Source: Loigolactobacillus backii
GTDB taxonomy: Bacteria; Bacillota; Bacilli; Lactobacillales; Lactobacillaceae
Direction of reading: 5' to 3'
DNA: 32,895 nt
NCBI RefSeq assembly: GCF_003946275.1
Contig: NZ_RHNQ01000028.1
Span: 1-32,895 of the forward strand
In this document: in pieces, positions 3,292 through 24,970 of the stretch
Position numbering within the stretch: position 1 is the first letter of the stretch
Layout of the letters: the number at the start of each line of letters is the position of its first letter
The notes under the pieces: generated by a model
What the model was told of the DNA's origin: nothing
What the model saw: the letters and a program-made list of their open reading frames with translations, nothing else
The model's database searches: none
Program-made: the position numbers and the translations under genes

Positions 3292-4704
3292 TTAATGGTC
3301 AGTATCATTTTCATCAGTTAGATTTTGCCGGTTCAGGTGCCAGTTTAGGCTAATATTTCGTAATGTATAACCGCCAATACCGATTAAGAAACCAACGGCG
3401 GCGAAAGGAATCCAATCAAAACCTAATTTGAATAAAGGCAGATAATGTGTGGCGAAGGCTGTCATGCTACGAGCGAAGGCCGTTTGGGCCAATAATGGTG
3501 GTAAAGCGTGAATCATGTCAAAAATTGCCGGAATTAAGGTGAAAATTGTGGTCACGCGGTAGACAAAGCTGCTTTGCTTAAATAGTGGTGATAGGATGGC
3601 CAAAATAATAAGCGTAATTGCTAAGGGATAAAGGAACATTAAAACTGGTGTTGACCAAGCAATAATCTGAGTTAGGCCAATATTTGCGATCAAAAAGGAA
3701 ATACCACAAGTGAAACGTAAAAAGGCTAGGTAACTAATTTTAGGAAAATGTTTGTGAAAATCTTGGGCAAAGGCGGTGACCAGGCCCATTGCTGTGGTTA
3801 TACAAGTTACCGTTGCTAACGTGGCCAAAATAGCGTCACCAACGGCGCCCATATAGTGATTAGCAATTTGGGCAAAGACAATACCACCGTTTGCTGATAG
3901 TTTAAATTGATTTAGACTGGTAGCGCCAATTAGGATTAACGCGAGATAAATCAAGGCTTCAATTCCCATGCTGAGCGCACCTGATTTAGCGGTGGCCAAG
4001 GCAATGTTCTTTGGTTTATGCGTTCCTAATAGTTTAATTGAAGTAACAACAGTAACACCAAAAGCTAGGCCGGCCAAAGCATCCATCGTGTTGTAGCCCT
4101 GAAGAAAGCCATTAGTGAGTGCACCATGTGTGTAGGCAGTAGTTGCGGTGGCGTGACTGGCTTGTCCCATTGGACTTAAAAACGCGAACAAAAAAATGAT
4201 TGCCAATAAAACTAAGAATAGTGGGTTTAGTAAGCGACCGATTACATCAATAATACGTGATTGGCGGCTGGATAAACGATAGGTGATCAGAAAGAAAATT
4301 GCTGAATAAATGGCCAGGTAAAGGCTAGTTTGGTCTGCCGGGATATGTGGGGCAATTCCTAATTCAAAAGGAACAGTGGCCGTTCTGGGAGTGGCAAATA
4401 ACGGGCCCAAAGTTGCGTGAACAAGGATCAAAAAAATGAGCGCGTAGTGTTTGCCGATCGGGCGAGCAACATCGTAGATACCTTCACTACGTGTGATACT
4501 AATAGCGATAATTGAAAGTAGTGGCAGCAGGGTACCGGACAATAGAAAACCGATCGTTGCCAACCCCCAATGATTTCCAGCGAGTTGACCAAGGTGCAGT
4601 GGAAAAATTAAATTACCGGCACCAAAAAACATTCCAAATAGCATTGAACCAATCATTAAATAGTTTTTCCAAGTTAAGCGACGTTCTTTTTGTTCTAATT
4701 CCAT
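3292..4704 (-). CDS. brnQ: Branched-chain amino acid transporter BrnQ (LIVCS family)
   Basis: A 470-residue polytopic membrane protein predicted to import leucine, isoleucine and valine with a cation. GAGNLIFPLHLG at residues 28-39 is the family's N-terminal signature, and about twelve hydrophobic segments follow. I chose the ATG at 4704, giving MELEQKERRL, because AGGAGG lies 9 bases upstream of it. A longer reading from 4740 adds 12 residues that overlap this site. The gene sits alone behind a T-box leader, so expression should rise when the matching tRNA is uncharged. There is a clear promoter upstream of that leader. A weak GC-rich inverted repeat lies beyond its stop at about 3229-3262, but I see no convincing terminator. 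Confidence 0.93.
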   Translation of the reverse strand: MELEQKERRLTWKNYLMIGSMLFGMFFGAGNLIFPLHLGQLAGNHWGLATIGFLLSGTLLPLLSIIAISITRSEGIYDVARPIGKHYALIFLILVHATLGPLFATPRTATVPFELGIAPHIPADQTSLYLAIYSAIFFLITYRLSSRQSRIIDVIGRLLNPLFLVLLAIIFLFAFLSPMGQASHATATTAYTHGALTNGFLQGYNTMDALAGLAFGVTVVTSIKLLGTHKPKNIALATAKSGALSMGIEALIYLALILIGATSLNQFKLSANGGIVFAQIANHYMGAVGDAILATLATVTCITTAMGLVTAFAQDFHKHFPKISYLAFLRFTCGISFLIANIGLTQIIAWSTPVLMFLYPLAITLIILAILSPLFKQSSFVYRVTTIFTLIPAIFDMIHALPPLLAQTAFARSMTAFATHYLPLFKLGFDWIPFAAVGFLIGIGGYTLRNISLNWHLNRQNLTDENDTDH

Positions 4705-4789
4705 AAACGAAAACCTCCTATGTTTTGGCCGCAGGTACAAATATAATTACGAAATACAAATCTGAATGCGATTATTAGTGGTTGACCAA

Positions 4790-5100
4790 ATAAAAAAAGC
4801 GTCCTTTAAAAGCAAATGCTTTTAAAGGACGCTGAATTGCGTGTTACCACCTTAAATTTACTATTACTTCGCAGTAATAGCCTTACCCCGTGCTGAGAAA
4901 GCATTAAAATACTTTTTCAAGACGTTGGCGCAATAATGGGCGCTCCCAACGGACACTTCATAAACGTCGCATCCGCCACTCCGAGGCTACTTTCACAATT
5001 ACCTACTTTTACTTCCTTGCACTAATCGAAGCTCGCTTGAAAAATAAGTAGTTGCTACTCTCCCCATCACGGTGTTTTAATAATAATCTCATCTATCTTT
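4790..5100 (-). promoter_or_regulatory. T-box leader of brnQ, specifier probably GUA (Val)
   Basis: On the minus strand, the leader of brnQ holds the T-box AAGGTGGTAACACGC at 4839-4853, just before a strong terminator. Stem I elements are visible: GAGAGTA, the AGCGAGC distal motif and the specifier side GTGAAAGTAGCCTC. The triplet placed as in the other T-boxes of this window, between A-rich bases and one purine before the lower helix, is GTA at 4988-4990, which reads valine. CTC, a leucine codon two bases on, is an alternative. The TAACACGC T-box deviates from the common TACCGCG. Confidence 0.88.
4792..4832 (-). terminator. Terminator of the brnQ T-box
   Basis: A perfect 16-bp stem, GCGTCCTTTAAAAGCA with its complement, around a 2-base loop. 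Read leftward it is followed by T7. The alternative antiterminator would use the T-box sequence at 4839-4853. Confidence 0.92.
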
Positions 5101-20132: not shown

Positions 20133-20268
20133 TTGAAACAATAAATAGCATCAAAAACCGATGAGGTGGAGATCAAGATTGTTGTGCACGTAAAGAGAGT
20201 TGCCGGTGCTGAGAATGGCAGTCGAACGCAGACAATTAAATGGACCACCGAGGGCAAACTCGAAAAGA

Positions 20269-20379
20269 GTGGACCAAAAGACGGTTAGATTACGGAGAAT
20301 AGCCTAGTTTGCCGAATTATTCGCGAAGCGGATGATTTGGTGAACGTCGCTATTCGGAGTAATCTGTCTTTTGGGCCAC
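20269..20379 (+). repeat. Hairpin module A in trp T-box copy 1
   Basis: Outer arms GTGGACCAAAAGAC and GTCTTTTGGGCCAC enclose the core GGTTAGATTACGGAGAATAGCC...GGCTATTC-type halves (here GCTATTCGGAGTAATCT). The core also occurs in family 1 elements, notably at 23721-23836 in inverted order, but there the outer arms are GTGTTTGAAAAGGC. So the same core sits on a different stem. The 111-bp module is present in both trp leaders. Confidence 0.85.
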
Positions 20380-20422
20380 GTTTCCATAATCCAGGTAGAG
20401 GCAGTTTCACCGGAATGGAAAC

Positions 20423-20483
20423 GTGAGAAAAAAGCTAACTTCTTCCAGCTAGCCTAGAAGAAGTTGAGCAGCTTTTTTCTCAC
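20423..20483 (+). repeat. Hairpin module B in trp T-box copy 1 (short form)
   Basis: GTGAGAAAAAAGC pairs with GCTTTTTTCTCAC; inside, AACTTCTTC pairs with GAAGAAGTT over a short loop. In the other trp leader the same outer arms carry a different, longer core at 23389-23499. Confidence 0.85.
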
Positions 20484-20622
20484 TCTTATTACAGTTTGAC
20501 GTCAGGCACGCGTCAGTTGCCGGAGGGATGTTTGTCCCTTGCTAAGCGTAGTGACGAGATTAGTTAGTTTATCTTTTTTTGGAATAGACTAATTTCGTGA
20601 CTGAATTAAGGTGGCACCGCGG

Positions 20623-20667
20623 AAAAATCCGTCCTTAACAAGAGATTGTTATGGGCGGATTTTTTTC
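20623..20667 (+). terminator. Terminator of trp T-box copy 1
   Basis: AAATCCGTCC with GGGCGGATTT and an inner TAACAA/TTGTTA stem over GAGA, followed by T7. The flanking CACCGCGG..CGCGGTG can extend the stem. The T-box sequence overlaps the start, as expected for the switch. Confidence 0.92.
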
Positions 20668-20895: not shown

Positions 20896-20916
20896 TCTAA
20901 CTAAGGAGTGAAAACT

Positions 20917-20967
20917 ATGCAGCAATTACCTGGAAAACGATGGCGTTTACAATTGATGGCAACTTAG
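20917..20967 (+). CDS. Short Trp-containing leader ORF upstream of trpE (16 residues)
   Basis: ATG with an AAGGAG Shine-Dalgarno 8 bases upstream opens MQQLPGKRWRLQLMAT and a TAG stop, 26 bases before the trpE start. The first nine codons encode the same residues as the ORF before trpD (23859-23921). The three base differences there are all synonymous third positions (CAG/CAA, CCT/CCC, CGA/CGG). After the Trp codon the two copies diverge, apparently by small indels. I infer that the ORF is translated and that its Trp codon or nascent chain may add to T-box control of trpE. It is not a known family. Confidence 0.6.
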   Translation: MQQLPGKRWRLQLMAT

Positions 20968-20993
20968 AAAAATCAATTGTGAGGCGATTAAAA

Positions 20994-22466
20994 ATGAAAA
21001 AAGAAGATTTAGCAATTTATGCTGATTATCCAGCAGTTCCAGTAACGATGCAGTTTAAAGTATTGCAGTTTAACCCACTTAATTTGGTCAGCCACTTGCG
21101 CCAACAGGGACATACTAGTTATTTACTAACGGGTGCACCAAAGCCGAAGTTAGATGGTTATACCTTTATTGGCTATCAACCTAAAATGAAAATCCATTAC
21201 CGCAACGGGCAATTAACGGTAATCAAAAATGGAAAGACAACAACTAAAAAGACAGCAATTAAACCTTACCTAGAAGAATTATTGAACAGGTTTAGAACGC
21301 CTAAATTACCAGATTCACCACCTTTTCAAGGGGGACTGGTAGGTTACTTTGCCTACGATTATGGTCAGTACGCTAACCCAACGTTATCGTCCAGTGTCAG
21401 TGATCCTTATCAATTGGATGATGTTGATCTGTTATTGGCCGATCAAGTTATTGCTTATAATCAACGGACTAAAATTGTGACGTTAAGCCAGATTGTACCA
21501 ACAAATGAATTAAATAATCGATTTGAACAGGTACAGGTGCAACTTGGTAAATTAAAACGAACTATTCTACAATTACAACAGAGTTTTGTCCCGGTAACTT
21601 TACAACTAAAATCAGCCTTACAACTGCAGTTTAATTTGCCAACCTTTACGAATTTAGTTGAACAAACCAAACAACATATTGTCGCGGGAGATATTTTTCA
21701 GTTAATTCTATCTAATCCACAGCACGCGGATATGGCCGGTAGTTTATTTGCCGCAGCACCAACCTTATTTCACCAAAGCCCATCGCCGTATCAATTCTAT
21801 TTTCAGGATGGTGATTTTGAAGCATTAGGGGCCTCACCAGAAACTTTAATTAGTCGACAGGGAACACAATTAGTGACCTATCCGTTGGCTGGCACTCGAC
21901 GTCGCGGTAAAACGGAGGCCGAAGATCGACGCCTGGCTGCAGAGCTGCAACATAGTGAAAAGGAATTATCTGAGCACAATATGTTAATCGATTTAGGCCG
22001 AAACGATTTAGGCCGGGTTAGTCGTTTTGGTAGTGTTAAGGTTACTAGCTGTCGCCAATTATTACGGTTTAGCCAAGTGATGCACCTTGGTTCAACAATT
22101 GAAAGCGAGGTCAGATCAGATCAATCTAGCATTGATATTCTCGATGCCTTGATGCCAGCAGGGACCTTATCCGGAGCGCCTAAAGTTCGTGCCATGCAGT
22201 TGATCAATGAACTGGAACAAAATAAGCGTGGCTTGTACGGTGGTTGTCTTGGTTATTTGGATTTTGATGGTGACTTGGACTTATGTATTGGCATTCGTTT
22301 GGCTTATCGAAAAGGAACTAATCTAGTGGTCCATTCCGGTGCTGGTATTGTGGCGGACAGCATTGCCAAATACGAATATCAAGAATTTAACAATAAGGCA
22401 CGGTCAGTTGTGACGGCTTTGCAACAAGTCGCAAAACAGGAGGTGCACTATGCTGTTAATAATTGA
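20994..22466 (+). CDS. trpE: Anthranilate synthase component I
   Basis: A 490-residue chorismate-binding enzyme. With TrpG it makes anthranilate from chorismate and glutamine, the first step of tryptophan synthesis. The C-terminal half carries the signature (LGASPETL; YPLAGTRRRGKTEAED; SEHNMLIDLGRNDLGRV; MPAGTLSGAPKVRAM; GCLGYLDFDGDLD). The feedback motif LLES of typical TrpE reads LLTG at residues 44-47, so tryptophan inhibition may be altered. The ATG at 20994 has GAGG 9 bases upstream. An in-frame ATG at 20940 would add 18 residues but lies inside the leader ORF and lacks a good ribosome binding site. trpG overlaps its 3' end by 17 bases. Confidence 0.95.
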   Translation: MKKEDLAIYADYPAVPVTMQFKVLQFNPLNLVSHLRQQGHTSYLLTGAPKPKLDGYTFIGYQPKMKIHYRNGQLTVIKNGKTTTKKTAIKPYLEELLNRFRTPKLPDSPPFQGGLVGYFAYDYGQYANPTLSSSVSDPYQLDDVDLLLADQVIAYNQRTKIVTLSQIVPTNELNNRFEQVQVQLGKLKRTILQLQQSFVPVTLQLKSALQLQFNLPTFTNLVEQTKQHIVAGDIFQLILSNPQHADMAGSLFAAAPTLFHQSPSPYQFYFQDGDFEALGASPETLISRQGTQLVTYPLAGTRRRGKTEAEDRRLAAELQHSEKELSEHNMLIDLGRNDLGRVSRFGSVKVTSCRQLLRFSQVMHLGSTIESEVRSDQSSIDILDALMPAGTLSGAPKVRAMQLINELEQNKRGLYGGCLGYLDFDGDLDLCIGIRLAYRKGTNLVVHSGAGIVADSIAKYEYQEFNNKARSVVTALQQVAKQEVHYAVNN

Positions 22467-23034
22467 TAATTACGATAGTTTTACTTATAATTTGTACCAA
22501 CTTGTTGGTCAAATGACCCAAGAAGAAGTTCGTGTGGTAAAAAATGATCAACTGACGACAACACAGATTGCGGACCTGAACCCAAGCGGTATTATTCTTT
22601 CTCCAGGGCCTGGCCGACCAGAGGATGCTGGAGTGACCTTGGCAGTTGTTGAAAAGTTTGCTGGTAAAATACCATTATTTGGTGTTTGCCTCGGACACCA
22701 AGCCATTTGTGTCGCGTATGGTGGGCAGGTCGTCGCCGCGGCACAATTGATGCACGGTAAGCCATCAGAAATTATGGTACAACAAGCAAGTACGTTGTTT
22801 AATGCTTGTCCTACTAAATTTCAGGCTGCGCGCTATCATTCGTTAATTGCGGCGCAGGCAAATTTTCCAACTAACTTACAGATTACGGCAAAAACGGCCA
22901 AGGGTGAGATTATGGCCTTAGCCGATGAAGAACACCAAGTTTATGGTGTTCAGTTCCATCCCGAATCAATCATGACTGATGAAACGGTGGGTCGCCAAAT
23001 TGTGAGAAACTTTTTGGCTGTTTGTGAAAGTTGA
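22450..23034 (+). CDS. trpG: Anthranilate synthase component II (glutamine amidotransferase)
   Basis: A 194-residue class I glutamine amidotransferase that supplies ammonia to TrpE. The triad is visible: Cys80 in FGVCLGHQAI, and His170 and Glu172 in QFHPES. MLLIIDNYDSFTYNL and SPGPGRPEDAG are the usual N-terminal segments. It overlaps trpE by 17 bases, and AGGAGG lies 6 bases upstream of its ATG inside trpE, so the two are probably translationally coupled. It could also serve para-aminobenzoate synthesis, as TrpG does in some Firmicutes, but the context favours tryptophan. No clear terminator follows; the second trp promoter starts 34 bp later. Confidence 0.95.
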   Translation: MLLIIDNYDSFTYNLYQLVGQMTQEEVRVVKNDQLTTTQIADLNPSGIILSPGPGRPEDAGVTLAVVEKFAGKIPLFGVCLGHQAICVAYGGQVVAAAQLMHGKPSEIMVQQASTLFNACPTKFQAARYHSLIAAQANFPTNLQITAKTAKGEIMALADEEHQVYGVQFHPESIMTDETVGRQIVRNFLAVCES

Positions 23035-23067
23035 AAGATTAATATTAAATTAGTTTTTAAAAATATA

Positions 23068-23096
23068 TTGACAAATTACACAGTTAGTTTTAATGT
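23068..23096 (+). promoter_or_regulatory. Promoter of the trpDCFBA unit
   Basis: TTGACA, 17-base spacer, TAATGT, placed ahead of the second T-box exactly as in copy 1. The flanking promoter sequence differs from copy 1 although the leaders are near-identical. Confidence 0.85.
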
Positions 23097-23234
23097 TAGT
23101 GTCAATCAAATATCGTTCAAAAACCGATGAGGTGGAGATCAAGATTGTTGTGCACGTAAAGAGAGTTGCCGGTGCTGAGAATGGCAGTCGAACGCAGACA
23201 ATTAAATGGACCACCGAGGGCAAACTCGAAAAGA

Positions 23235-23345
23235 GTGGACCAAAAGACGGTTAGATTACGGAGAATAGCCTTGTTTGCTGAATTATTCGCGAAGCGGATG
23301 ATTTGGTGAACGTCGCTATTCGGAGTAATCTGTCTTTTGGGCCAC
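23235..23345 (+). repeat. Hairpin module A in trp T-box copy 2
   Basis: The same GTGGACCAAAAGAC arms and 111-bp length as in copy 1, with two base changes in the core (CCTTGTTTGCTG against CCTAGTTTGCCG). Confidence 0.85.
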
Positions 23346-23388
23346 GTTTCCACAATCTAGGTAGAAGCAGTTTCACCGGAATGGAAAC

Positions 23389-23499
23389 GTGAGAAAAAAG
23401 ACAGCTTCCTGCGGTTAGCTACATAAGTCGTCTCGGTCATTGCATGACCAAGCCGCCTTATTAGGCTAATCCTCAGAAGCTAACCGTCTTTTTTCTCAC
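23389..23499 (+). repeat. Hairpin module B in trp T-box copy 2 (long form)
   Basis: GTGAGAAAAAAGAC and GTCTTTTTTCTCAC enclose a core of AGCTTCCTGCGGTTAGC and TAATCCTCAGAAGCTAACC. A GGTCATTGCATGACC hairpin sits at the tip. CCTGCGGTTAGCTAC and GGCTAATCCTCAGAA also form the halves of family 1 elements (8897-9013, 20733-20895). In copy 1 the same arms hold a different short core. Confidence 0.88.
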
Positions 23500-23638
23500 T
23501 CTTATTACAGTTTGACGTCAGGCACGCGTCAGTTGCCGGAGGGATGTTTGTCCCTTGCTAAGCGTAGTGACGAGATTAGTTAGTTTATCTTTTTTTGGAA
23601 TAGACTAATTTCGTGACTGAATTAAGGTGGCACCGCGG

Positions 23639-23683
23639 AAAAATCCGTCCTTAACAAGAAATTGTTATGGGCGGATTTTTTTA
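23639..23683 (+). terminator. Terminator of trp T-box copy 2
   Basis: AAATCCGTCC with GGGCGGATTT and an inner TAACAA/TTGTTA stem over GAAA, followed by T7. One base in the loop differs from copy 1. Confidence 0.92.
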
Positions 23684-23720
23684 GCGGTGTTTTTAATGAT
23701 TTTTTCAAGAGACTCGGCGT

Positions 23721-23836
23721 AAACGTGTTTGAAAAGGCAGATTACTCCGAATAGCGACGTTCACCAAATCATCCGCTTTGCGAATAATTCGGCAAACTAG
23801 GCTATTCTCCGTAATCTAACCGCCTTTTCAAACACT
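23721..23836. repeat. Palindromic element, family 1 (between T-box 2 and trpD)
   Basis: AAACGTGTTTGAAAAGGC and GCCTTTTCAAACACT arms enclose CAGATTACTCCGAATAGCG...GGCTATTCTCCGTAATCT. This core is the reverse complement of the module A core in the T-box just upstream. It occupies the same place as the 20733-20895 element does before trpE, but its interior is different. Confidence 0.9.
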
Positions 23837-23858
23837 ATCTAACTAAGGAGTGAAAACC

Positions 23859-23921
23859 ATGCAACAATTACCCGGAAAACGGTGGCAACGCATCATTGAA
23901 TCGACTAATAGACAGACATGA
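23859..23921 (+). CDS. Short Trp-containing leader ORF upstream of trpD (20 residues)
   Basis: ATG with AAGGAG 8 bases upstream opens MQQLPGKRWQRIIESTNRQT and a TGA stop, 29 bases before trpD. Residues 1-9 match the ORF before trpE with only synonymous differences. The single Trp codon is codon 9. This copy may be closer to the original, since the trpE copy looks shifted after the Trp codon. A regulatory leader peptide is an inference. Confidence 0.6.
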   Translation: MQQLPGKRWQRIIESTNRQT

Positions 23922-23950
23922 TAATGTAAAACAAAATTGGAGGAATTAGT

Positions 23951-24970
23951 ATGATTAAAGAAGCGATTAAAACAGTAACTGACCAACAGGATTTGACTTT
24001 TGAACAGGCAGAACAAGTGATTGATGAAATTATGAGTGGTAAAGCGGTGGATAGCCAGATTGCCAGTCTTCTAACGGCCTTGGCAATGAAACACGAAACG
24101 ATCGCGGAGATTGCTGGTTCAGCCAGTGCAATGCGTGCCCATGCGTTGCAATTTGATGCTCAGGAACCTGTTTTAGAAATTGTCGGAACTGGCGGTGATC
24201 ATTCTAATTCTTTCAATATTTCAACAACTTCTGCCTTAGTGATTGCGGCCGCTGGAACTCCGGTTGCTAAACACGGTAACCGGGCAGCTTCAAGTCGTAG
24301 CGGTGCCGCTGATGTCCTAGAAGCACTGGGTGTTAAAATCGACGTTACCCCAGAAGCGAGTGAAGCCATTTTACACAAAATTGGAATTTGTTTCTTGTTT
24401 GCTCAGGAATATCATCAGGCGATGAAATACGTTGCACCAGTACGTAAGAGTTTGGGCATTCATACTTTATTCAACATCCTTGGGCCGCTAGCAAATCCAG
24501 CAGGGGCAACAATGCAGCTTTTAGGTGTTTATGATCAATCACTCTTAGAACCAATGGCTCACGTATTACAACAGCTTGGGGTTAAGAACGCAATGGTTGT
24601 TCACGGTGCCGATGGATTGGATGAGGTTTCGTTAACTGGGCCAACACAGGTTTGTGAATTGCAACAAGGAGAATTTAGTTCTTACGCTATTACTCCTGAA
24701 CAATTTGGTTTGAAACGTTGTCAACCGGCCGATTTAGTTGGGGGTACGCCAGCCGATAATGCCCAAATCACGCGGGATATTTTAGCCGGTAAAAAAGGAC
24801 CACAACGGGATGTTGTTTTAATGAACGCTGGCTGTGCATTGCACATTGCGCATCCTGAGTTAACGCTTCAACAGGCCATTGATTTAGCGGCCAAAACCAT
24901 TGATTCCGGTAAGGCTGCAGCTAAACTTGCTGCCTTTATTCAACTTAGCCAGGAAGCGGTGGCCGCATGA
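23951..24970 (+). CDS. trpD: Anthranilate phosphoribosyltransferase
   Basis: A 339-residue enzyme joining anthranilate to phosphoribosyl pyrophosphate, the second tryptophan step. The PRPP-binding GTGGD is at residues 79-83, followed by [32 protein letters not shown] begins at 107 (key part KHGNRAASS), and an anthranilate-site HPAxR-like segment reads VAPVRKSLG. It is a single-domain enzyme, not fused to TrpG. The ATG lies 7 bases after GGAGG. It is the first gene of the second trp unit and overlaps trpC by 4 bases (ATGA). Confidence 0.96.

Follow-up and report, generated by a model that had tools for sequence, protein, structure and literature searches.

Leader ORFs downstream of the two Trp T-boxes of the trp operon

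The DNA stretch analysed here (the window) comprises 32,895 nucleotides (nt) of contig NZ_RHNQ01000028.1 of Loigolactobacillus backii and harbours a tryptophan (Trp) biosynthesis operon with the order trpE-trpG, second leader, then trpD-C-F-B-A. The subject of this work is the two leaders upstream of trpE and trpD, each of which contains a Trp T-box, followed by the T-box terminator, one further palindrome, a Shine-Dalgarno (SD) sequence and a short open reading frame (ORF) with a Trp codon (Table 1). Across their T-box parts the leaders are 96-97% identical. In both, the match to RF00230 spans positions 1-219 of the model with the T-box core, UGG appears to occupy the specifier position of the alignment, and long palindromic inserts interrupt the T-box; the scores are below the Rfam gathering score of 93 (for scores and E values see Table 1).

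A preliminary description of the two ORFs had listed their positions, AAGGAG SD sequences, start codons and peptides, all of which are correct. It had also pointed to three base differences across nine shared codons (CAG/CAA, CCT/CCC and CGA/CGG), and every one of them is indeed synonymous. Since 15 of the 81 possible single substitutions in these codons are synonymous, three out of three would be expected by chance with a probability of about 0.006. Taken alone, a set of three changes from a single duplicated pair carries little weight. L. iwatensis JCM 18838 (L013), whose TrpE shares 99% identity with that of the window, harbours both frames, and in each of them the nine codons are identical to those of the window; it thus adds no independent change. 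Further, the exchange of CGA for CGG is not evidence for selection on the peptide, since this codon is otherwise nearly invariant (see below).

Table 1. Features of the trpE and trpD leaders and adjacent genes in the window
Feature	Position	Strand	Basis
Trp T-box 1 of the trpE leader, interrupted by a palindromic insert	20152..20639	+	RF00230, 60.7 bits, E 6.3e-12
T-box 1 terminator hairpin, then T run	20623..20664	+	Inverted repeat I8; sequence
SD sequence AAGGAG of leader ORF 1	20903..20908	+	Sequence
Leader ORF 1, MQQLPGKRWRLQLMAT followed by stop	20917..20967	+	Sequence; related frames in relatives
CGA-TGG codon pair (Arg-Trp) in leader ORF 1	20938..20943	+	Sequence
Anti-SD arm, first base directly after TGG	20944..20957	+	Predicted 14-bp helix, -14.4 kcal/mol
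Pairing arm containing the trpE SD sequence GAGG (20981-20984)	20972..20986	+	Predicted helix; folding model
trpE, anthranilate synthase component I	20994..22466	+	Best NCBIfam match TIGR00564 (trpE_most), E 2.9e-120, below curated cut-off
trpG, glutamine amidotransferase subunit	22450..23034	+	TIGR00566, above cut-off
Trp T-box 2 of the trpD leader, interrupted by palindromic inserts	23118..23655	+	RF00230, 56.1 bits, E 9.7e-11
T-box 2 terminator hairpin, then T run	23639..23680	+	Inverted repeat I9
SD sequence AAGGAG of leader ORF 2	23845..23850	+	Sequence
Leader ORF 2, MQQLPGKRWQRIIESTNRQT followed by stop	23859..23921	+	Sequence
CGG-TGG codon pair in leader ORF 2	23880..23885	+	Sequence; one of two CGG cases in the survey
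trpD SD sequence GGAGGA	23939..23944	+	Predicted pairing with leader ORF not significant, p 0.11
trpD, anthranilate phosphoribosyltransferase	23951..24970	+	TIGR01245, above cut-off

The leader ORF in trp operons of Lactobacillaceae

For comparison, 118 distinct T-box-to-gene leaders of trpE and trpD were assembled, with identical leaders counted once. One of 66 trpE and 21 of 81 trpD loci were left out because they have no T-box core within 800 nt, as was L202, in which no trp gene was found. The trpE leader of L122 was dropped because its gene start is outside the locus, and this resulted in 117 leaders, 116 from Lactobacillaceae and one from a metagenome-assembled genome of the Clostridiaceae (L046).

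An SD-led ORF in frame with CG[AG]-TGG and reading (K)-R-W-(Q) is present in 90 of 93 leaders with a distance of 113-417 nt between T-box core and gene, the exceptions being L034 (trpE), L216 (trpD) and L046. It was found in none of the 23 leaders in which this distance is 112 nt or less; one further ORF-bearing leader has a mis-assigned gene start and is outside both length classes. When leaders were shuffled, 2 of 4650 trials produced an SD-led ORF with CG[AG]TGG, and 68 of 4650 produced one with a Trp codon anywhere among its first 12 codons. Thus, the ORF is more than a chance occurrence in the long leaders.

Three more distant members of the genus (G002, G005 and G007) keep the leader frame before trpD and encode related yet different peptides (MQLDKRWRFLIS..., MQLNQRWQILVS... 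and MQLIKRWQSLVS..., respectively). G001 of the same genus has two T-boxes with their cores 87 and 94 nt from the genes and no leader ORF. The expectation that relatives should have the ORF therefore holds for those with long leaders and fails for those with short ones. The arrangement of T-box and leader ORF is also found in named genomes of Lentilactobacillus, Secundilactobacillus, Companilactobacillus and Lacticaseibacillus, and the further Lactobacillaceae genomes with the ORF span 12 genus labels.

Searches with patterns gave additional information on where the motif occurs. With MQL..KRW in 397 Lactobacillaceae, 40 in-frame regions were taken among the matches listed; five of them (L117, L118, L122, L123 and L151) are behind a T-box, all directly before trpD, and the other 35 have no T-box core within 600 nt. 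At the level of the order, the motif pattern matches in at least 235 of 345 genomes, the reversed-pattern control matches too, and we take these matches to be mostly due to chance; 5 of 11 regions picked by eye among the order-wide matches listed are located before trpX. The genus-wide pattern ATGCA..MRNTGG was rejected as too loose. The 30 trpD upstream regions fetched for family f3 (105 genomes) contain no T-box core and no CG[AG]TGG within 200 nt, and two of them have another SD-led ORF with Trp.

Frame and codon context of the leader Trp codon

Anchoring on CG[AG]TGG yielded 94 occurrences in distinct contexts, 88 of which have an SD-led ATG at most 45 nt upstream, while six have none by this SD rule. 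All 88 are in frame with the ATG, at eight different start-to-Trp distances between 9 and 30 nt; of 22 other TGG triplets that follow an SD-led ATG in these leaders, 6 share its frame. The trp genes of the surveyed loci hold nearly no Trp codons (TGG is 6 of 60,862 codons counted), and against this background the Trp codon of the leader stands out. As far as sequence can say, the leader ORF is translated.

Among 89 distinct 27-mers centred on TGG, Arg precedes Trp in 88, Lys precedes Arg in 69 and Gln follows in 71; the only one without Arg stems from L224, whose GTG-led ORF is a chance occurrence. CGA encodes this Arg in 86 of 88 cases (44 of 45 cluster representatives), and CGG does so in two trpD leaders, those of the window and L. 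iwatensis; by comparison, the trp genes of these loci use CGA for 14.1% of their 2187 Arg codons. TGG is followed by C in 80 of the 27-mers, by T in 9 and never by a purine: all 18 non-Gln codons at this position begin with C or T and specify unlike residues, one of them being a stop codon and one belonging to L224. Trp is residue 4-11 of the leader peptide and is encoded by a single codon per ORF in 87 of 92 leaders.

Since CGA is nearly invariant, the base after TGG is always a pyrimidine and other positions vary, the constraint is on codons or nucleotides around TGG and not on a long peptide. No conserved stretch independent of the codons used, of the kind that recognition of a nascent chain would predict, extends beyond the sensor codon, and only R-W is near-invariant. 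The proposed conservation of MQQLPGKRW hence does not apply to the peptide as such; it is an SD sequence, an ATG, variable codons and CGA-TGG that are conserved.

Predicted pairing of the leader with the Shine-Dalgarno sequence of the gene

Pairing was analysed in 86 of the 92 leaders with a Trp-containing ORF, preselected for a distance of 45-95 nt between TGG and the ATG of the gene. The six left out are L069, L070 and L071 (corresponding to G002, G005 and G007, which were tested apart), L210, L048 (gene start mis-assigned) and L224. When the leaders were aligned on TGG and 12-nt windows were paired with the SD region of the gene, the mean duplex energy was -5.9 to -6.1 kcal/mol for windows beginning at +4 to +7 from the T of TGG, compared to -1.9 to -3.4 kcal/mol across the rest of the leader. 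In the 45 cluster representatives, own partners reached -8.80 kcal/mol versus -5.82 +/- 0.31 kcal/mol for permuted ones, and none of 5000 permutations was as low. The own partner was better than the median swapped partner in 62 of 86 leaders, and the individual anti-SD helices differ in sequence between genera. An anti-SD arm which co-varies with the SD region was thus found for the whole set, and also for the trpE leader of the window.

A stem of -8 kcal/mol or lower is predicted in 48 of 86 leaders, with its first paired base 0-6 nt after TGG in a search limited to the 19 nt that follow TGG. Among the trpD leaders of the same genus, only that of G007 has a significant stem (-18.4 kcal/mol). 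According to the folding model, a gain in SD openness of more than 0.2 results from a ribosome positioned at TGG in 27 of 86 leaders and from one placed 28 nt further upstream in 4 of 86; for the trpE leader of the window, predicted openness changes from 0.15 in the free RNA to 0.46 with a ribosome at TGG.

The distance from TGG to the ATG of the gene is 61.9 +/- 9.0 nt in the 86 leaders, a spread narrowed by the preselection, and that from the stop codon of the ORF to the ATG is 23.2 +/- 25.1 nt. This suggests that the sensor codon is held in place more than the stop codon, with part of the difference being due to the preselection. The ATG of the gene is located 49-91 nt past the Trp-codon region in 86 of 92 leaders.

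Pairing of the CGAUGG flank with other parts of the leader was considered and rejected as a general explanation. Its best partner was position +16 of the T-box core (mean -5.7 kcal/mol), which is constant T-box sequence, and five trpX loci (see below) have no T-box match.

Other T-boxes, trpX leaders and the trpB motif

As a control, the 30 best-scoring T-box loci of eight genomes were inspected, of which 25 could be scored and five could not. Only one of the 25 (L283) has an SD-ATG ORF, which holds Trp and lacks the motif; CG[AG]TGG is contained in two of the 25, only because the script took a gene start more than 900 nt away. Four T-boxes of trpS (L288, confirmed, and L279, L294 and L296, taken as trpS from the same first residues) are 75-169 nt from the gene and are not followed by an SD-ATG ORF. 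The second Trp-dependent step may be reserved for biosynthesis and transport genes.

Transport is represented by trpX, which encodes a tryptophan ATP-binding cassette transporter binding protein according to NCBIfam. In family f2, CGA-TGG is found at a distance of 45-71 nt ahead of the gene in 14 of 18 trpX leaders (L308-L325), where another type of attenuator is located upstream of it. The script detected an SD-led ATG in frame in 10 of the 14, and in the other four an in-frame ATG behind a GGGG-type site was recognized by eye. In the loci of this family which were scanned, the upstream attenuator is not a T-box (five loci, no T-box match up to E 0.5); it is the trpB motif (RF04312) with its own Trp leader ORF, in which codons other than CGA precede TGG.

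The trpB motif is an orphan that has been presented as a strong candidate for a riboswitch, without a classic attenuator having been ruled out (PMC11109978). We found that in all 30 fetched RF04312 loci (L338-L367, the best-scoring of 70 genomes with a match, some of them close relatives), examined from about -130 to 0 relative to the match, an SD-led ORF, in which one or two codons specify Trp, ends 5-26 nt upstream of the motif. Many of these ORFs end in WQ-x-WRR or WQSQ[DN]R (for example ..WQSWRR, ..WQNWRR and ..WQSQNR). Such ORFs were present in 3 of 90 control windows and in 2 of 30 on the opposite strand, and the difference suggests that the trpB motif is a ribosome-mediated Trp leader-peptide attenuator. 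In five loci of family f7 (L352, L356, L357, L358 and L362), a different ORF with two Trp codons (..SDWEWLNKKR or similar) is located 108-144 nt after the trpB motif and before the gene. Thus, Trp leader peptides in tandem recur.

Proposed mechanism

We consider it likely, judging from the sequence comparisons, that the short ORFs encode Trp leader peptides, and that each constitutes a translational attenuator stacked on a Trp T-box, in which a ribosome stalled at UGG frees the SD sequence of the gene. The layout is that of a translational attenuator, and from it we infer stalling at TGG, melting of the stem and initiation at trpE or trpD. When uncharged tRNA-Trp rises, the T-box would let RNA polymerase through the terminator. 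In the resulting mRNA, the SD sequence of trpE, and in many relatives also that of trpD, would be paired with a segment that begins 0-6 nt past the leader Trp codon. A ribosome waiting at UGG for Trp-tRNA would cover this segment, and the start site of the gene would become free. With plentiful Trp-tRNA, the ribosome would proceed, and either the stem would re-form or the moving or terminating ribosome would occlude the site. A codon context which lengthens the pause may be provided by CGA on the 5' side of UGG and by the pyrimidine (mostly C) on its 3' side. Such a role of CGA is plausible, since in the his leader of Salmonella this codon is poorly read and increases stalling (PMC4046918).

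The comparison in Lactobacillaceae hence speaks for the earlier proposal that a translated and conserved ORF with a Trp codon supplements the T-box with another step that depends on Trp, with the response to Trp being the part that we infer. As to how this step works, nascent-chain stalling, Trp-codon stalling and translational coupling had been offered as options. Our data favour stalling at the Trp codon, acting on a stem that sequesters the SD sequence, over recognition of a long nascent chain, since the residues of the peptide vary except for CGA-TGG, Lys before Arg in the majority of cases, and Gln after Trp.

Relation to known systems

In the trpL leader of enteric bacteria, Trp codons in the leader peptide control a transcription terminator and no T-box is present. 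The ORF studied here likewise uses a Trp codon as the sensor, but the terminator belongs to the T-box and is located upstream of the ORF. In erm leaders, drug-dependent stalling on the leader ORF opens a stem which hides the downstream ribosome binding site. A stalled ribosome would similarly open the SD stem in the leaders described here, whereas the expected signal is the lack of Trp-tRNA. The trpB motif is also a Trp-related leader element of Lactobacillales, after which the CGA-TGG ORF is found in family f2, but it is a separate transcription attenuator.

Closest to our case is rtpLP, the leader peptide of the Bacillus subtilis rtpA (anti-TRAP) operon, which was reportedly described by Chen and Yanofsky in 2003 and 2004. 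Its hallmark is a stop codon placed so that the terminating ribosome covers the SD sequence of the gene. As in that operon, a Trp T-box is followed by a short ORF with Trp codons upstream of a structural gene, and a transcriptional and a translational sensor are arranged in series. However, rtpLP controls the anti-TRAP regulator, while the lactobacillar ORF is located directly upstream of trpE and/or trpD; and instead of three Trp codons it mostly has one, in the fixed context CGA-TGG-Y and often with an adjoining anti-SD arm.

The statement in the preliminary description that T-boxes normally act alone overlooks this leader, in which a T-box is combined with a Trp leader peptide (PMC2311275). 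The combination as such is thus already known from B. subtilis. For trp biosynthetic operons of lactobacilli we found no report of it in the literature searched, with most subscription journals outside its reach, and the term 'leader peptide' was not found in the accessible part of a T-box survey (PMC2494555).

Points against the mechanism and alternative explanations

Several observations weigh against release of the SD sequence by a ribosome stalled at UGG. The overall folding energy of the interval between ORF and gene is ordinary (mean z -0.10), and the signal came only with position-wise pairing to the SD sequence. The stem reaches p<=0.05 in only 22 of 45 representatives, and -8 kcal/mol in 26 of 45. 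In the trpD leader of the window, no significant SD stem was found (p 0.11), the codon pair contains CGG, and the SD sequence is predicted to be open anyway (0.80 unpaired without ribosome and 0.71 with a ribosome at TGG); the stems of G002 and G005 are not significant either (p 0.07 and 0.13). In 12 trpX leaders tested, with CGA-TGG 45-59 nt before the gene, no anti-SD peak was detected; L311 and L312, in which the trpX motif is present, are not among these 12. A single Trp codon, as in 87 of 92 leaders, is fewer than the three of rtpLP. Finally, in the Salmonella data CGA is itself the codon that the ribosome decodes and not the one that precedes a hungry codon (PMC4046918).

Since the trpD leader of the window and the 12 tested trpX leaders have no significant stem, the anti-SD stem is not universal, and occlusion by a finishing ribosome may replace or join it. 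In this rtpLP-type explanation no stem is needed: a ribosome at the stop codon of the ORF blocks the SD sequence of the gene, and one stalled at Trp leaves it free. There is precedent in B. subtilis, where complete translation of rtpLP prevents translation of RtpA (PMC2311275). By geometry, the stop codon in 41 of 86 leaders lets the terminating ribosome reach or pass the SD sequence, and the explanation would also serve those leaders without a significant stem. On the other hand, the position of the stop codon is loose (standard deviation 25 nt) when compared to that of the Trp codon (9 nt, partly preselected), and occlusion does not predict a co-varying anti-SD arm at the Trp codon. We regard it as a real possibility, somewhat short of an even chance, and one that may act together with the stem.

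It is tempting to speculate further that CGA-UGG-Y is a dedicated codon-context sensor, in which an Arg codon decoded through a weak inosine wobble and an unfavourable 3' base render the intervening Trp codon particularly responsive to a lack of Trp-tRNA. It would serve as a portable second checkpoint in front of the genes with which Lactobacillales synthesize and transport Trp, at a distance of about 45-90 nt and irrespective of the attenuator (T-box or trpB motif) upstream; the stem would then be an elaboration of the Lactobacillaceae. This broader idea is tentative, and we hold it to be rather doubtful.

Plain translational coupling, in which every ribosome that passes through the leader ORF would open the stem, so that the trp genes are translated along with the leader and Trp is not sensed, is unlikely. 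It would account for a stem sequestering the SD sequence beside a translated ORF and for those ORFs that overlap the start of the gene, four of them by ATGA. It would leave without explanation why TGG is located at the 5' edge of the arm although the trp genes are nearly free of Trp codons, why CGA is nearly invariant, and why an SD-ATG ORF follows only one of the 25 other T-boxes scored.

Arrest by the nascent chain, with (K)RW(Q) itself jamming the ribosome and free Trp or uncharged tRNA as the signal, would fit the frequencies of Arg, Lys and Gln around Trp (88, 69 and 71 of 89, respectively). But Arg is kept at the level of the codon and not merely as an amino acid, the unlike residues which replace Gln all have codons beginning with C or T and thus point to a nucleotide or codon constraint, and the chain is short, with Trp as residue 4-11; we therefore judge this explanation to be quite improbable.

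Least probable is that CGAUGGC is a binding site for RNA or protein or an overlapping AUG start, with the ORF being incidental, since despite nucleotides kept beyond the needs of the peptide and an AUG created by CGA-TGG, which is in frame with trpE in the trpE leader of the window, all 88 motifs are in frame with an SD-led ATG at variable distance, neither the window nor L. iwatensis has this AUG in its trpD leader, where the codon is CGG, and the best complement in the leader is in the T-box core, for which the five scanned trpX loci have no match up to E 0.5.

Additional observations in the window

The ATG at 20940, which originates from CGA-TGG in the trpE leader, is open into trpE and could give rise to a longer TrpE of 508 amino acids. 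Such an N-terminally extended TrpE is probably fortuitous. An origin of the ORF as a remnant of the trpE start was considered and set aside.

Palindromes of about 108 nt are located at 20276-20383, 23242-23349 and 23721-23828, one of them being inversely oriented; these sites are within the two T-boxes and in the stretch that separates terminator and leader ORF. Queries with the palindrome end and the inner palindrome resulted in 48 and 22 genome matches, respectively, many of them short. L. iwatensis has different palindromes at the same leader sites. Perhaps these palindromes belong to a mobile or recombining family of hairpins which inserts into riboswitch loops.

A third T-box in the window (4822-5079, minus strand; RF00230, 97.4 bits) is located upstream of a gene for a branched-chain amino acid carrier (3292-4740; TIGR00796, above cut-off).

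Implications

The results suggest a rule for annotation: in Lactobacillaceae, when more than about 112 nt separate a Trp T-box from trpE or trpD, the interval nearly always contains a leader ORF. If the proposed mechanism is true, this industrially important family would check tryptophan twice on one mRNA, with the T-box as the first and the ribosome as the second sensor, and would do so at the biosynthetic genes themselves. In that case, the near-invariant CGA in front of the Trp codon would be a natural codon-pair context which tunes the response of the ribosome to a scarce tRNA.

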